Below, piece after piece: positions 8,666-51,315 of a DNA stretch of 51,315 bases; position 1 is the first letter of the stretch, and every line of letters begins with the position of its first letter. The translations under genes were made by a program, and so were the position numbers. The stretch comes from Flavobacteriales bacterium (GTDB taxonomy: Bacteria; Bacteroidota; Bacteroidia; Flavobacteriales_D; Sanyastnellaceae). Below the pieces are notes generated by a model. That model made no database searches. It was not told where the DNA came from and was given only the letters and a program-made list of their open reading frames with translations. The stretch is from positions 1 through 51,315 of the forward strand of contig JAIXWX010000027.1 of assembly GCA_027491075.1 (NCBI GenBank). The letters are read 5' to 3'.

Positions 8666-10303
8666 ATGAAACCTGCGTCCTTTATTATTTTACTCTTTAT
8701 GGCATATAGCCATGCCTCAAAAAGTCAAAATCTGTTCATTAATGAGATTATATCAGAGAATATAGCTGGTGAAATGGACGATTTCTTTCAACGAGAAGAT
8801 TGGATAGAGATTTACAACACGGGCGGAATTACCAATTTGGCGGGCTATTACTTAAGTGATAACCCAGACTCTTTGGATCGATGGAAAATTCCCGCTACCA
8901 ATGCTGGGGTGACTACCATACTTCCCAACAATCATTTGATTTTTTGGATTGATAGAGACCCAGAGCAAGGACCAGATCATGCTGATTTCAATTTGAACCC
9001 AGACGGCGAAACAGTCTTTTTGGTAGCACCCGATGGAGTTACCATAATTGATTCTATAACTTATCCTCCGATGGCTGCCGATATCAGCTACGGAAGAGTC
9101 TGCGACGGTTGCGACGGTTGGCAGTTTTTCAATAATGTCACTTTTGATGATGACAATACAGAAATTCTTCCTTCAACTGCATTTGTTTTGATAAATGAAG
9201 TGCAAGCCAATAATGTCAGCTATTTTAGAGACAATGCATTGGATCATGACGCATGGTTAGAGATCTACAATCCAAATCCTCAACAGGTTAATTTGGCGGG
9301 ATATTCAATAACGCTAAATGGAACCCAAACATGGACCATGCCGACGCAGGATCCATTCCATACTGCAATTCCAGCGGGCGAGTTTAAAGTATTTTGGTTA
9401 GACAATGAACCATTAGAAGGCGGTCACCACGGGACTTTTGAACTTCCTTTGAACGGTGGAACTTTGACCCTTCGAAGCTCTAACAATACTCTTTTAGACA
9501 CCTACACTTATCCAAGTACTGCCGCTAATGCGAGTTACGGCAGGTCTACGGATGGTGCTGCAAACAGTATAGTTTTCAATGCACCTACCCCCGACTTGAC
9601 CAATTCATTGGTCATGATTGATCCTCCGACCTTGTATATCAATGAGGTTTTGAGTGTAAATATTAATGATGTATTAGACAATGCTGATCAAACTGAAGAC
9701 TGGTTTGAGATTTACAACCCCAATAACTTTCCTGTAAATATTGGAGGCTATTACTTTTCTGATAACCCAGAAAATCCGAGAAAATGGCCCGTACCTAGCT
9801 TTTATCCTGATAGCGTCACTATTCCTGCGCAGGGCTGGATCCTTTTTTGGGCGGATGAAGATATGGGGCAAGGAGTGATGCATGCTAGTTTCCGTTTGAG
9901 CAATAATCTAGAAAGTCTGCGATTCACCTCTCCAGATGGTATTACATTGATAGATGAAATATCTTGGCAAGGAATGGATCCCGACACTTCTTTAGGACGA
10001 TTTAATGATGGTTCACCCAACTGGGTTTTCTTTTTAGAAACGACACCAGACGATAGCAACAACGGAGCACTTGTGACTGTAAAAGAAACTTTGACTTCGC
10101 GCTTGGCTTTGGAAGTCTATCCAAATCCAACTTCAGGTGAAATTCGATTTAATCGACCAGTAAATGCAGTCATTTACTCTTCTGATGGCAAATTAGTGGA
10201 TAGCATTTTAAACGTTAACACGTATAATTTTGATCGCATCGAAAGTGGTGTATTCATTATTAGAGAAGAGCAAGGCGGAGTCGTTCGAGTGGTTAAACAC
10301 TAG
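8666..10303 (+). CDS. T9SS-secreted protein with three lamin-tail (LTD) domains
   Basis: The 545-residue product has a signal peptide (residues 1-20). Three lamin-tail-domain repeats occupy about 21-150, 172-300 and 320-455. Each opens LFINEI/VLINEV/LYINEV and carries DWIEIYN...NLAGYYLSDNP, followed by GxxxFWxDxxPxQGxxHxxF and SYGR-type ends. The C-terminus (LEVYPNPTSGEIRFNR...GVFIIREE) is a type A T9SS sorting domain. LTDs in bacterial exoproteins often accompany nucleases or CotH-type proteins, but no enzyme domain is present here, so a structural or adhesive surface role is inferred. A 9-bp duplication (tgcgacggt twice, near 9100) inserts CDG in the first LTD. Its stop overlaps that of the convergent downstream gene. 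Confidence 0.85.
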   Translation: MKPASFIILLFMAYSHASKSQNLFINEIISENIAGEMDDFFQREDWIEIYNTGGITNLAGYYLSDNPDSLDRWKIPATNAGVTTILPNNHLIFWIDRDPEQGPDHADFNLNPDGETVFLVAPDGVTIIDSITYPPMAADISYGRVCDGCDGWQFFNNVTFDDDNTEILPSTAFVLINEVQANNVSYFRDNALDHDAWLEIYNPNPQQVNLAGYSITLNGTQTWTMPTQDPFHTAIPAGEFKVFWLDNEPLEGGHHGTFELPLNGGTLTLRSSNNTLLDTYTYPSTAANASYGRSTDGAANSIVFNAPTPDLTNSLVMIDPPTLYINEVLSVNINDVLDNADQTEDWFEIYNPNNFPVNIGGYYFSDNPENPRKWPVPSFYPDSVTIPAQGWILFWADEDMGQGVMHASFRLSNNLESLRFTSPDGITLIDEISWQGMDPDTSLGRFNDGSPNWVFFLETTPDDSNNGALVTVKETLTSRLALEVYPNPTSGEIRFNRPVNAVIYSSDGKLVDSILNVNTYNFDRIESGVFIIREEQGGVVRVVKH

Positions 10304-18318: not shown

Positions 18319-19266
18319 TTATTCCTCCAATAATCCTCTGCCTATCTTTTTAATTTTTCCCTCGTGAATCATTTTTGGAATCAAAGTATCCAGTACGCCG
18401 TTGATGAACGTGGCACTTTTTGGAGTGCTGTAATACTTAGACAATTCGATATACTCGTTCATGGTCACTTTAACGGGAATAGAATCAAACGTTTGTGCTT
18501 CAGCAAAAGCCATTTTAAGAATGATCATATCCATGATCGCAATTCTATCCGCTTCCCAGTTGGGTGTATTTTGAGCGATCACCTTTTGATTTTCTTCTCC
18601 CAATGCCAGCGTTTGTCTGAAGAGCTTTTTGCAATAATCATTTTCATCCTCAGGATCCTTCCACAGTGGCAGGAACTCAACATCCTCGTCGTTCTCATTG
18701 ATTTGCTTCAATGTTCTAAGCACCATACTAGCGCAGAGATCTAGGTCATCATTCCAGAAAATTCCCTGATCTTCTAGAAATTCATGCATTGACTCATCGT
18801 TGACCAAGTGGCGTCTGAAGAAACGAAGAAGATATTCCTTGTCATGTTCAAAGCCTCTCTTTTTCGAGTCCATGTATTCTTTATAGTCATCCGTTTCGGT
18901 GAGCATTTTAAACATGGCTTTGAGCAAGTCCTTGTTGTCTTTCCATCGGATATGAATCTCCTTTGATGCCTTATCAAGTTTTTTTGAATTGGCAATAATT
19001 CTTAATAGACTATTTGTAACAAACTTCGTGTTGGGATGCAAGTCCTCTTTCGTAGGAAGTTTCTTATTCATCCCCGCTTCGATTTTTTCGATAGCAAGCC
19101 CCTGCATTTCTCCTAAAAGAAGAATAAACGATACATAAAGCTCTCTGAATCGATCGATGCTTTCAAAGAGCATCTTTTCGTAGGCCGCTGCATTGGGTTT
19201 TTCATCGCTATAATAAGCGAACAAGATTTGGAGAACTTTAATTCGAACGTGCCTTCTGTTGAGCAT
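18319..19266 (-). CDS. nusB: Transcription antitermination factor NusB, long Bacteroidota form
   Basis: NusB with NusE (S10) binds boxA RNA and promotes antitermination on rRNA operons. The C-terminal part (about 190-315) carries the NusB fold signature: NWEADRIAIMDMIILKMAFAE, PVKVTMNEYIELSKYYSTPKSATFINGVLD. The N-terminus MLNRRHVRIKVLQILFAYY is the typical first helix. The 315 residues are about twice the E. coli length because of a helical insertion between the first helices and the C-terminal bundle, as is usual in Bacteroidota. It lies 4 bases after leucine dehydrogenase and 1 base before miaA, so the three are probably co-transcribed. Confidence 0.93.
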   Translation of the reverse strand: MLNRRHVRIKVLQILFAYYSDEKPNAAAYEKMLFESIDRFRELYVSFILLLGEMQGLAIEKIEAGMNKKLPTKEDLHPNTKFVTNSLLRIIANSKKLDKASKEIHIRWKDNKDLLKAMFKMLTETDDYKEYMDSKKRGFEHDKEYLLRFFRRHLVNDESMHEFLEDQGIFWNDDLDLCASMVLRTLKQINENDEDVEFLPLWKDPEDENDYCKKLFRQTLALGEENQKVIAQNTPNWEADRIAIMDMIILKMAFAEAQTFDSIPVKVTMNEYIELSKYYSTPKSATFINGVLDTLIPKMIHEGKIKKIGRGLLEE

Positions 19267-48290: not shown

Positions 48291-49160
48291 ATGAGACAGT
48301 TAAAAATTACCAAGCAGGTCACCAATCGCGAAACCGCTTCTTTGGATAAGTACTTGCAGGAAATCGGTCGAGTGGACTTGATTACTGCAGAGGAAGAAGT
48401 GGAATTAGCGCGCCGCATTAAAGCTGGCGACCAAGTGGCATTGGAGAAGCTCACCAAAGCCAACCTGCGTTTCGTGGTGTCTGTATCAAAGCAATATCAA
48501 AATCAGGGTTTATCCCTCCCCGACTTGATCAATGAAGGGAACTTAGGTTTGATCAAAGCCGCACAGCGATTTGATGAAACCCGAGGTTTCAAGTTCATCT
48601 CCTACGCCGTATGGTGGATTCGTCAATCGATTCTACAGGCTTTGGCCGAGCAGTCGCGTATTGTGCGTTTGCCGTTGAACAAGATCGGTTCCATCAACAA
48701 GATCAACAAGGCCTTTGCCAAGTTAGAGCAAGAGTTTGAGAGACCACCAACACCGGCAGAACTAGCAGAAGTGTTAGAGATGACCTTGGATGAAGTAAAG
48801 CAATCGTTGCGCAACAGCGGACGTCACGTATCCATGGATGCACCGTTGAAAGACGGCGACGACAGCAGTTCCACGATGTACGATGTACTTCAGACCAACG
48901 ACACTCCCTCACCCGACACCGATTTGTTGCATGAGTCATTGAGAAAAGAAATCGAGCGATCCTTGCGCACCTTGACCAGCAGAGAAGCCGACGTGATACG
49001 ATTGTATTTTGGATTAAATGGAGAGCATCCATTGACGTTAGAAGAGATCGGAGAGCGATTTGATTTGACCCGTGAGCGCGTGCGTCAGATCAAAGAAAAA
49101 GCCATCAGAAGATTGAAGCACACAAGTCGAAGCAAGATTCTTAAATCCTATCTCGGCTAA
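48291..49160 (+). CDS. rpoD: Primary RNA polymerase sigma factor (RpoD/SigA-type)
   Basis: This is a 289-residue group 1/2 sigma-70 without the long region 1.1, the Bacteroidota primary form. Region 1.2 is [22 protein letters not shown]. Region 2 contains [58 protein letters not shown]. Region 3 is [11 protein letters not shown]. Region 4 has the [30 protein letters not shown]. Promoters of the TAnnTTTG type in this window are those this sigma class is known to recognise. It follows pnp by 99 bases and ends in a strong terminator. Confidence 0.96.
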
Positions 49161-49181
49161 GACTTTTTCAAAAGAGCATAT

Positions 49182-49221
49182 AAAAAAACCTCATCACAAG
49201 TATTTGTGGTGAGGTTTTTTT
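49182..49221 (+). terminator. Bidirectional terminator after rpoD
   Basis: A stem of about 18 pairs (AAAAAAACCTCATCACAA at 49182-49199 with the complementary arm 49204-49221, one G-U, 4-base loop) leaves T-tracts on both strands. It can terminate rpoD and also the minus-strand zinc-ribbon gene, whose stop is at 49303. Confidence 0.85.
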
Positions 49222-49302
49222 ATGGCGTGCAAGATACCAAGAAGCAATTAGGTTAAAACTACATGCACAAACAGAATGAATAAAGCCTCGTAGGTCAACG
49301 AA

Positions 49303-49686
49303 TTACTGCCGTCGGTTTCTCTCCTTCTTAATGATTCGGATATGAGCATCGTCCATCTTGGAATAACCAATATCATAACAGAAGAGGTAAGCTGCGCCCG
49401 TTTTCAAGTTTTGAATACTTGTAAAATAATTAAAATTGAATCCAGATTGAAGCATCAACTGATGCGTGGTTTCTGTCACACCTTTTTCCCAGAATGACTC
49501 GAGTATCTGGTAATTTTTTAAAAGTACTTTATTCACTGCCCTTACTACCCTGAGCGTACCTTCATTTCGGAGATTGTGAAATGCAGTGCGACAAGAGGCG
49601 TTGCAGAAGCGCTTGTCACTTCTACCTTGAATAGGCTCATTGCAATTTTGGCAGCGAGGCTTTACTCTATCCTTGGTGTTATCCAT
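49303..49686 (-). CDS. Small zinc-ribbon protein divergent from the tyrosine recombinase
   Basis: The 127-residue protein from ATG 49686 (an in-frame TTG at 49692 is weaker) opens with a four-Cys zinc ribbon: RCQNCNEPIQGRSDKRFCNASC (Cys12, Cys15, Cys28, Cys32), related in style to MYM/DUF-type ribbons in small DNA- or RNA-binding proteins. The middle is basic and helical (RVVRAVNKVLLKNYQILE), and the tail is Lys/Arg-rich (RIIKKERNRRQ). I do not recognise a named function. It is separated from the recombinase by a 130-base spacer with phased boxes, so it may be a regulator or a directionality factor of that recombinase (inference). Confidence 0.7.
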   Translation of the reverse strand: MDNTKDRVKPRCQNCNEPIQGRSDKRFCNASCRTAFHNLRNEGTLRVVRAVNKVLLKNYQILESFWEKGVTETTHQLMLQSGFNFNYFTSIQNLKTGAAYLFCYDIGYSKMDDAHIRIIKKERNRRQ

Positions 49687-49702
49687 TTTCAAGAGAATTA
49701 TG

Positions 49703-49764
49703 TGTTTGTATGCGTTTATATACGTTTATAGATATTACTAACCATTTATAGACGCTTATAAACG
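49703..49764. promoter_or_regulatory. Phased CGTTTATA boxes in opposing orientation
   Basis: Direct boxes TGTTTGTA (49703-49710), CGTTTATA (49713-49720) and CGTTTATA (49723-49730) are spaced by exactly 10 bases. Reverse boxes TATAGACG (49747-49754) and TATAAACG (49757-49764) are likewise 10 bases apart. The two groups face each other across 16 bases. Helical phasing suggests cooperative protein binding at an operator or recombination accessory site. Confidence 0.6.
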
Positions 49765-49806
49765 TTTGCGAAGCAGTATGATTCAATTCTTTCGGCATCT
49801 TTCCTG

Positions 49807-49817
49807 AAAAAAAAAAA
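49807..49817 (+). repeat. A11 homopolymer fused to the recombinase start codon
   Basis: Eleven consecutive A run from 49807 to 49817, and the last A is the A of the ATG. The tract lies where a ribosome binding site would sit, so a length change would alter initiation spacing rather than the reading frame. Confidence 0.75.
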
Positions 49818-51256
49818 TGACACATCAAAGTTTTCGCCATCAGAAGATGGTTTATGTTCGAGAAATCGAGCATGCGGGCAAGAAATTTTTCTCATATACA
49901 TTTAAAAAGGATAAAGATTTATTTGCACGAATGCTCCAATTCCCTCAACTGAAATATCTCAAAAATGAGAAATTATTGATTAGTTCTGCGGATCCATATA
50001 TTCTTGAATATTTGGAGTTAAACAACAACGGAGAGTTTAGGATTGTCCGCTCAGGATTGTATGATCGAGAAGTTCGACAGGTATCACATAGCATTGGAAA
50101 CAATGTTGAAAAGGTTGAAATTCCTAAATTCAATTTGGCTTATAAAGCAGAATTAAAGCGTATAAAATATGAGGAAAGGGATTATTTTATGTTGGTTACA
50201 GATCACGCTCTCTACCTAAAAGAGGTGTTAAGAGATTTGGATTCAGTAGTTTTTCATCGAAAGTTTGCAGCATTTCTATTACCATTCTCAGAAAAGTATT
50301 TGCTAACTATTCTCGAAGCCTGCAAAGGAAAGATACAGATTCTCATTCATCAGACAGTAAAGCTTCAAAGTCTATACGTTCATTCCAGGTTTTGGCTTCA
50401 AACATATAGTGTAGAGATTTCATTTGATAATGAGTATCTATCTCACCTGAAGTCTCGAAATCGCAGCATGAGTACCATACAAAACTACTTTAACAGTTTT
50501 CTGCAATTTTGTTATTTCTGTCAGAAAAAGAATATAGACAAGAAAGAATTAGACGGGACCCAAGTCAATAAGCTCGTTTTGGAATTATCCACGCGCAACA
50601 AGTATGGTATCAGTATGCGGCATTCACTAATCAATGCAGTACTGTATTATTATAAGAATGTTCTTGGACGATTCGATTACAAAAATGGCATCATTAGACC
50701 CAAAAAAGATAAGGAATTGCCCCATGTGCTGTCCAAAGAGGTGGTTCAGGCAATTTTAAGGAATTGCGAAAATTTGAAGCATCGAACGATGTTGAGCCTC
50801 ACCTATGCTAGTGGATTAAGGGTTGGTGAGGTTTTAAAGTTGAAGGTAAGTGACATCGATAGCAAACGCATGTTGATTACTGTGAGAGGTGGAAAAGGCA
50901 AAAAGGATAGAATTGTAATGTTAAGTGAAAAAATCTTAGTGCTATTGCGAGATTATTTTAAACAGTATCGACCATCACATTATCTCTTTGAAGGGCAATA
51001 TGGAGGCGTTTACTCCGAAGCTTCATTAAGAAAAGTATTGAACAACGCCTGCATAAAAGCAAAGCTTTTGGAGCGCCCAACGCTACATTGGTTACGTCAC
51101 TCCTTTGCGACTCATCTTTTGGAAGCAGGAACAGACATCCGGTACATTCAGCAGTTGCTTGGTCACGCTAGTACGAAGACTACAGAAATATACACTCACG
51201 TGAGTAACAAGCACATTGGTATGATTAAGAGCCCATTGGATCATTTGGATATTTAA
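49817..51256 (+). CDS. Tyrosine recombinase with a long N-terminal extension
   Basis: The 479-residue product ends in a full catalytic domain: Arg335 (ASGLRVGEVL), Lys360 (RGGKGKKDRI), His424/Arg427 (HWLRHSFATHLL), His450 (LLGHAS) and the nucleophile Tyr459 (EIYTHV). A SAM-like core-binding domain lies at about 200-290 (NEYLSHLKSRNRSMSTIQNYF). The C-terminus ...YTHVSNKHIGMIKSPLD resembles integron integrases, but the extra IntI-specific insertion before the second catalytic box is absent. Residues 1 to about 190 have no domain I recognise and make it roughly 150 residues longer than XerC/D. ATG 49817 follows an A11 run; ATG 49850 is a second possible start. Confidence 0.88.
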   Translation: MTHQSFRHQKMVYVREIEHAGKKFFSYTFKKDKDLFARMLQFPQLKYLKNEKLLISSADPYILEYLELNNNGEFRIVRSGLYDREVRQVSHSIGNNVEKVEIPKFNLAYKAELKRIKYEERDYFMLVTDHALYLKEVLRDLDSVVFHRKFAAFLLPFSEKYLLTILEACKGKIQILIHQTVKLQSLYVHSRFWLQTYSVEISFDNEYLSHLKSRNRSMSTIQNYFNSFLQFCYFCQKKNIDKKELDGTQVNKLVLELSTRNKYGISMRHSLINAVLYYYKNVLGRFDYKNGIIRPKKDKELPHVLSKEVVQAILRNCENLKHRTMLSLTYASGLRVGEVLKLKVSDIDSKRMLITVRGGKGKKDRIVMLSEKILVLLRDYFKQYRPSHYLFEGQYGGVYSEASLRKVLNNACIKAKLLERPTLHWLRHSFATHLLEAGTDIRYIQQLLGHASTKTTEIYTHVSNKHIGMIKSPLDHLDI

Positions 51257-51280
51257 AAATTAGGTGTAATTTTAAGTCAG

Positions 51281-51305
51281 ATAAATGCACCACGGGTGCG
51301 GTTAT
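51281..51305. repeat. Dyad-symmetric sequence downstream of the recombinase
   Basis: ATAA, two bases, GCACC, ACG, GGTGC, two bases, TTAT: a 25-base near-perfect inverted repeat beginning 25 bases after the recombinase stop. No T-tract follows, so it is a poor terminator. It is the last structure before the window edge and could be an attachment or cassette-type site. Confidence 0.45.
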
Positions 51306-51315
51306 GAAATAGTTA

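Follow-up and report, generated by a model that had tools for sequence, protein, structure and literature searches.

The stretch analysed here (the window) is the entire contig JAIXWX010000027.1 (C20; 51,315 bp) from the draft genome of a Flavobacteriales bacterium (GCA_027491075.1; 3.02 Mb, 34 contigs), and its right end carries a tyrosine recombinase gene together with a compact set of neighbouring elements. In order, these are a zinc-ribbon (Zn) protein gene on the minus strand (49303-49692), 10-bp-phased, operator-like boxes (CGTTTATA / TATAAACG; 49713-49764), the recombinase gene on the plus strand (49817-51256), and 59 bases ending in GTTA (51312-51315, plus strand), which we presume to be a crossover core and which is also the contig end. 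The initial annotation had described a four-cysteine small protein and a complete tyrosine recombinase in divergent orientation, and both are confirmed by their open reading frames and by a PF00589 match in the latter.

The recombinase, 479 amino acids (aa) long, matches PF00589 at aa 304-465 (E 6e-40; catalytic domain at 50726-51211, plus strand). R335, K360, H424, R427, H450 and Y459, which we take to be the catalytic residues of a tyrosine recombinase, are invariant in all rows of a 10-row alignment that includes the window. Ahead of the catalytic domain lies a SAM-like core-binding domain (50435-50671, plus strand; PF13495 at aa 207-285, E 3.6e-5, under the curated cut-off). The N-terminal 200 aa comprise two copies of one domain (hhalign probability 96.9%, E 1.3e-10), namely repeat 1 at 49844-50050, defined by its profile match to repeat 2 and to single-repeat relatives, and repeat 2 at 50159-50371, both on the plus strand. 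Two copies also occur in both plasmid relatives discussed below, and a single copy in the other seven aligned relatives. Repeat 2 is suspected to be DUF5710-like; of the 10 aligned repeat sequences, 5 match DUF5710 at E<=1 (best 1.1e-4), and the one from the window matches nothing. An AlphaFold model gave pLDDT <50 at residues 1-203 (mean 52.7, pTM 0.29). These N-terminal repeats may bind DNA.

The insert specific to IntI, the integrase of canonical integrons, is missing from this enzyme. The integron integrase model TIGR02249 aligns at positions 7-185 and 239-315 and skips 186-238, the place of the insert, and the ~42 aa are equally absent in an alignment with VchIntIA (PDB 2A3V). The distance from box I to HxLRHS is 91 aa in the window recombinase and 91-94 aa in 33 of 37 rows of its family (four not measurable); it is 133-135 aa in 8 of 17 IntI rows, the motif having failed in the others (L135 gave 73 by motif slip). 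Thus model gap, spacing and the VchIntIA alignment all place the recombinase without the integron-defining additional domain near patch III. Among curated models the best is XerA_Arch (NF040815; 197.5 bits, cut-off 220), with the integron integrase model about equal (195.2 bits, also below cut-off); with XerC at 180 of 335 bits and XerD at 175 of 330, the recombinase falls under every curated Xer cut-off. Two separate Xer-like genes are found elsewhere in this genome, and no IntI over cut-off. In a quick-method tree, one branch (SH-aLRT 96) separates the 17 IntI rows from all others, and the 37 rows of the new family lie elsewhere, joined by two Xer-labelled rows (L107 and the viral integrase L127); the order of family, Xer and IntI is not settled by this tree (branches 89-90, long branches). 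The closest relative (L014, 83% identity, a Flavobacteriaceae metagenome-assembled genome) has an in-frame TGA at 1084-1086 inside the integrase, which is either a pseudogene or an assembly error.

Directly behind the recombinase gene lies an attI-like entry site (51254-51315, plus strand). The dyad reported just past the recombinase stop is indeed there: ATAAATGCACCACGGGTGCGGTTAT, at 51281-51305, has a perfect 5-bp GCACC/GGTGC core with ATAA/TTAT flanks, and its arms are partly conserved in other attI-like sites. Alone, the dyad would be a weak signal; it matters because it is part of an element of ~60 nucleotides (nt) present four times in the genome. The 62 bases from the recombinase stop onward match C25:259376 (81%) and C1:420 (78%), and a motif taken from 51258-51284 has four matches in the 3.02 Mb (C1:424, C7:480, C20:51258 and C25:259380). 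The motif had been designed on these four, already known sites and matches each of them exactly; what is informative is that no fifth entry site was found in 3.02 Mb at <=3 mismatches; a reversed control pattern gave 0. The sites on C1, C7 and C25 each open an array of co-directional cassettes, and relatives have a short site ending GTT(A/G) behind the recombinase stop. A conserved site next to the integrase gene, with four genomic copies and similar sites in relatives, is what an attI would be expected to look like. The initial annotation had further taken the dyad to be a repeated target. This was ruled out, since its 19-base pattern (<=3 mismatches) occurs once and the related element is confined to the four entry sites. 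The dyad belongs to a single attI-like entry site, and the repeated targets are distinct, attC-like folded sites at the cassette ends.

In relatives, the first gene unit closes with bases whose exact reverse complement follows GTT(A/G), as in L045 (GTTATAGGGC...GCCCTATAAC). Among 25 loci with at least 700 nt downstream, the cassette begins with the reverse complement of its own final bases (9-mers) in 21, compared with 65 of 600 when loci are swapped; in a permutation test 0 of 10000 permutations reached 21, the maximum being 11. Complementary ends are the trace expected of a circular cassette whose single site would be split by integration at G|TT.

Of these 21 first sites, 11 with an evident stem (131-141 nt) were chosen for a fold alignment of 142 columns; shorter sites (L014, L017, L100, L102, L106), longer ones (L056, L089, L104) and two of like length but of another sequence type or with a poor fold (L055, L103) were left out. 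The consensus fold, predicted from the same 11-row alignment that was used for covariation, has 23 pairs, 18 of them with changes on both sides. Paired cells amount to 93.3% in this fold against 67.7% in shuffled and 28.5-39.1% in slid alignments, and covariation is 0.625 against 0.168 and 0.053-0.096, respectively. An AAC...GTTR frame is present in 11/11 rows. The folded site has an invariant unpaired A (column 24) and spacers of unequal length on its two sides (1 nt against 5 nt), features that give it a polarity. By structure and covariation, 11 of the 21 sites would therefore qualify as attC-like, i.e., as imperfect inverted repeats with R and L boxes and a single-strand fold. A known RNA family as the source of the hairpins was ruled out: in an Rfam search of 10 loci, the sole match at gathering score was a group II intron, and the cassette-end sites matched no family.

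One could suppose that the recombinase belongs, as a Xer-type or phage-type integrase, to one mobile element and that the hairpins are structures such as terminators or REP-like repeats, as the best curated model is XerA_Arch (albeit below cut-off) and the tree sets L107 and the viral integrase among the family. However, compensatory changes combined with the invariant unpaired A and the AAC...GTT frame, self-complementary cassette ends, and different genes in one-orientation runs would not be expected of terminators or of a single element. We regard this explanation as highly improbable.

A covariance model of the attC-like site, R1, was built from the 11 training sites and gave 103 matches at E<=1 in 30 loci. 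Among the 66 best matches (E<=1.3e-4; 55 outside the training set), 59 are in loci with a mapped recombinase, and all 59 lie downstream of it on the same strand; the other seven are in L016, where the recombinase was not mapped, L020 and L021. The 37 weaker matches, among them complement-strand matches to many of these sites, were not counted. R1 had 0 matches in 12 control sources (155.6 kb, including the window) and none at E<=0.01 in two genomes of other groups (G507, G508) and an E. coli plasmid. In the window's own genome, where 150 of 789 candidates were scored, all 8 matches at E<=1 fall in the arrays on C1, C7 and C25. An array of target sites after the recombinase, as anticipated by the initial annotation, is thus borne out in relatives, where R1 sites lie downstream on the recombinase strand; the window's own array would lie past the contig end.

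Together, these findings make it very likely that the locus forms the integrase-bearing end of a gene-cassette platform of integron type, whose integrase is not an IntI. The anatomy of the locus, its recurrence, the self-complementarity of cassettes, the covariation of the folded sites, genomic linkage and orientation, and the missing IntI insert were all computed directly. The platform would represent a variant of the integron theme driven by a non-IntI integrase, its function being read from sequence. In the mechanism we propose, the recombinase, its gene reading towards the array, would act at the attI-like site just past its own stop, and circular cassettes would be inserted at the G|TT(A/G) core, the recombination and the exact crossover base being predictions. 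Each cassette would end in an attC-like site that folds as single-stranded DNA, with a putative choice of strand; its parts would be an R box formed by the first and last cassette bases, an L stem, the unpaired A and a variable tip. The three distant attI-like sites are probably served in trans by this integrase.

Indirect signs of integration or excision by the integrase may be seen in a TIR+SLATT cassette that occurs in another context and in contigs that end at the core. The TIR+SLATT genes form the third cassette of the C25 array, and a related cassette in G529 (81% DNA identity) has a further gene, stands behind another core, and has its own exact complementary ends (GTTACCACC / GGTGGTAAC) and a different attC; it is related cargo in another frame. 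A plasmid search with the cassette DNA of the C25 array returned two records, both TIR-gene matches from lactic acid bacteria. As for contig ends, the window, L046 and L096 end in ...GTTA shortly after the recombinase, and L094 stops at the GTTA belonging to an attC. Truncation downstream of the recombinase affects 10 of the 30 best class-wide loci, in 7 cases within 260 nt of the stop, and upstream all 30 retain at least 1020 nt. Assemblies would appear to break wherever a different cassette comes next.

The arrays of this genome, tandem and co-directional and starting at an attI-like site as in integrons, carry anti-phage genes on C1 and C25. The C25 array holds Abi_alpha, PD-Lambda-5 A+B and a ThsB-like TIR with SLATT, and Pfam gave no match for several other C25 proteins. 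On C1, the cargo is DUF3800 and SIR2-STAND, with HigB/HigA behind the last detected site, and on C7 it is a regulator-propeller protein and proteins of no assigned role. Both genes of the two-gene anti-phage system PD-Lambda-5 lie within one cassette (L020 10824-13030). Farther along the C25 array (L020 15847-17712), two stretches of ~400 nt, repeated at 93% and 87%, stand behind attC-like stems, with a group II intron domain match (RF00029) at L020 16273-16348 on the cassette strand; they are probably degenerate introns in attC-like sites. The group II introns differ in strand: the RF00029 match in the C25 array lies on the cassette strand, and the intron reverse transcriptase gene of a Chryseobacterium plasmid is opposite to the cassettes.

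The zinc-ribbon protein (129 aa, CxxC...CxxxC, weakly DUF2116-like) has its cysteines arranged as C14-x2-C17-x12-C30-x3-C34, and homologs keep this pattern together with a GR.DK.FC...CR motif; Pfam gave weak matches only, below cut-off. Its gene gave tblastn matches in 5 of 67 locus entries, the window's included (the others being L014, L048, L055 and L098, where it lies beside the recombinase); the 67 include duplicate entries for a single gene and many that are truncated upstream. The gene is also divergent from the recombinase in Rufibacter and Pontibacter. Among 72,556 plasmid records, 5 matched the Pontibacter protein, and in four of these the gene adjoins the recombinase (Pontibacter, Rufibacter and two Persicobacter). 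In Adhaeribacter swui the boxes stand directly before the Zn gene, and no recombinase of this family was detected in the 18-kb stretch.

The 10-bp phasing of the boxes in the spacer, also noted in the initial annotation, is real: the self-match at lag 10 is 20/24, the best of lags 6-30, and 0 of 2000 dinucleotide shuffles reach it. This period is best or near best in four spacers, reached by 0, 124, 3 and 12 of 2000 shuffles in the window, L014, L123 and L124, respectively, and is thus not significant in L014. By raw tally, the exact 8-mer TATAAACG/CGTTTATA occurs in 4 of 9 spacers (window, L014, L188, L189) and with one mismatch in 8 of 9, adding L055, L123, L124 and L190; L048, among the 9, has none at <=1 mismatch. 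A reading of the boxes as integrase sites was considered and not retained, although they show partial likeness to an attI arm (GATAAACG in the C7 site). They may constitute the operator of the Zn protein, which, expressed from the divergent gene, probably binds them and represses itself and/or the integrase.

An alternative drawn from the initial annotation is a self-contained module, in which the Zn protein would be a directionality factor and the dyad a repeated target. In its favor, Zn gene, boxes and recombinase do recur together, and on this point the initial annotation is right. On the other hand, the Zn gene is missing near most relatives and is for this reason better viewed as an optional accessory (matches in 5 of the 67 entries). 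The dyad element, restricted to the four entry sites, with its 19-base pattern found once, also speaks against the module. Furthermore, because Zn gene and boxes persist in Adhaeribacter with no family recombinase detected in 18 kb, the protein is more likely to be a regulator than a directionality factor, a role for which no support was found. We therefore consider the self-contained module unlikely and favor the integron-type platform, with the Zn protein as a probable regulator.

Full-length relatives of the recombinase are encoded on complete plasmids of Rufibacter tibetensis (NZ_CP012644.1; 99% of query, 37% identity) and Pontibacter kalidii (NZ_CP111080.1; 98% of query, 36% identity). 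In both, the recombinase is followed by regular runs of mostly hypothetical co-directional genes with short hairpin sites between them and an IS110 gene. The start of a unit matches its own end (>=8 of 9) in 5 of 8 units in Rufibacter and 5 of 7 in Pontibacter (counting the IS110 gene as one unit), compared with 3 of 56 and 2 of 42 other pairs. The sites here are short, ~55-70 nt. On the Chryseobacterium plasmid NZ_CP041688.1, a relative covering 57% of the query is annotated in the record as 'site-specific tyrosine recombinase/integron integrase'; the plasmid also has an IS110 gene, the group II intron reverse transcriptase gene and, within the stretch examined, five R1 sites on the recombinase strand. 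IS1111/IS110 elements targeting attC are known. Of the 5 annotated plasmids examined around a recombinase or Zn gene, 4 have an IS110-family transposase within or next to the array (L123, L124, L125, L188), and the stretches of Persicobacter psychrovividus that were covered (L190, L191) contain none. A small gene for a single-stranded DNA-binding protein (SSB) stands by the integrase in L044, L045, L047 and L071 instead of the Zn gene, and in L098 as well as it; such a neighbour would possibly fit an enzyme with a single-stranded substrate.

Homologs of the L045 recombinase at E<=1e-60 were found in 183 of 396 Bacteroidia genomes (even sampling, >=90% completeness requested, at most 5 recombinase candidates scored per genome), the weakest of which may be of another type (L107, from G151, has no array signal). 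At least one attC-like site was detected in 287 of the 396, with 8 candidates scored per genome and stricter filters. Such sites occur in 167 of the 183 genomes that have the recombinase and in 120 of the 213 that do not (odds 8.1; the species are not independent of one another). In the window's family, Sanyastnellaceae, a homolog at E<=1e-50 occurs in 15 of 114 genomes, its own included, and none was found at this threshold in the two other genomes of its genus. The resemblance of the attC-like sites to integron sites, and their presence in the 120 genomes, could also mean that ordinary integron arrays are mobilised by a canonical IntI in trans, the adjoining recombinase being unrelated. However, IntI scores over cut-off in only 2 of the 396 genomes and not in the window's own, the 59/59 sites of mapped loci are downstream of the recombinase on its strand, and the distant attI-like sites match the sequence behind the recombinase stop. 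There is very little chance, in our judgement, that IntI accounts for these arrays.

Several observations weigh against the integron-type platform as we describe it. Four loci (L090, L097, L105, L107) lack self-complementary cassette ends, and among the 21 positives L056 and L100 are probably chance pairs, of which the swapped-pair rate of 10.8% predicts two or three. Ten of the 21 sites were excluded from the fold alignment, so the covariation speaks for the chosen type. The attC consensus R' GTTRRRY is complete in 2 of 10 complete rows (counted by eye), only GTTR being present in 11/11. At E<=0.01, R1 misses the shorter sites of L014, Rufibacter and Pontibacter, the closest relatives, with a single match in Pontibacter at E 0.1, and it matches the arrays of the window's own genome, which implies one integrase type with two site types. 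Of the genomes without a strong homolog, 120 of 213 still have attC-like sites. Several contigs stop before the core (L044, L047, L054, L060) or past it (including L051, L053, L068, L070, L086, L098 and L099). Lastly, the window's own array is not visible because its contig ends at the core.

As in integrons, a tyrosine recombinase stands beside an entry site, and the cassettes are co-directional, usually with one or two genes each. Cassette ends are likewise self-complementary and bear a folded attC-like site with a GTT core, several arrays contain insertions of IS110-family elements and group II introns, and the cargo includes toxin-antitoxin and defence genes. In contrast to integrons, the integrase of this platform has no IntI insert and carries N-terminal DUF5710-like repeats, the integrase gene reads towards the array with attI behind its stop, the genome has several attI-like sites, and the neighbour is an optional Zn protein with operator or an SSB. 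With XerC, XerD and XerA the recombinase has in common core-binding and catalytic domains without insert, and its best model; unlike them, the family mostly has N-terminal repeats and stands at cassette arrays, in a genome with its own two Xer-like genes. Clusters of attC sites lacking integron integrases (CALINs) and attG sites, i.e., secondary integron insertion sites at arbitrary genomic positions, are comparable in that arrays lie away from the integrase, and the C1, C7 and C25 arrays could fill in trans. Here, however, what stands at each distant position is a diverged copy of the integrase-linked attI, not an arbitrary genomic site.

According to passages of two reports, the IntI additional domain near patch III defines the integron integrase (PMC9668308, PMC2426708), and at least one survey retained only integrases with this domain or patch (PMC2426708). 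Searches with such a requirement would be expected to miss the present family. A further report states that the insert is not fully conserved in an 'integron-like' subgroup (PMC8138268); members of this family may therefore already sit there with their arrays unrecognised. Bacteroidota are mentioned among the phyla with integrons (PMC8618304, PMC9668308), and the IntegronFinder 2.0 report names one complete integron in Bacteroidetes proper, in Salinibacter ruber (PMC9024848). Group IIC-attC introns are described as sitting at attC in an orientation opposite to the cassettes (PMC7923331). Among the literature matches listed, from a search with preprints and most subscription journals outside its range, there was no description of integrons of this type in Bacteroidota.

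The platform type occurs across Bacteroidia, a class with few reported integrons. If active, it would mean that a whole bacterial class has an unrecognised gene-collecting engine and that integron-like recombination is possible without the domain held essential for it. As a broader and more tentative proposal, which we think possible but somewhat short of probable, Bacteroidia may have their own major integron class, present in about half of the species or more. Its integrase would recognise folded attC despite lacking the IntI domain. Tandem N-terminal DUF5710/HARP-like repeats, in some cases aided by a dedicated SSB, would deal with the single-stranded DNA, as a separate solution to this shared problem, and one integrase would feed several chromosomal attI that serve as anti-phage gene stores.

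Two further features border these elements. Minisatellite-like runs (CCCATTCCCGTT-type and ACTAGTC-type) stand directly before the distant attI-like sites of this genome, and one lies behind the C25 array (L020 ~9080-9370 and 18698-18722; L021 1-385; L118 ~270-450). In the window, a strong inverted repeat with a T run at 49180-49223, behind a sigma-factor-like open reading frame (48291-49160), is an ordinary terminator and forms the left border of the module.

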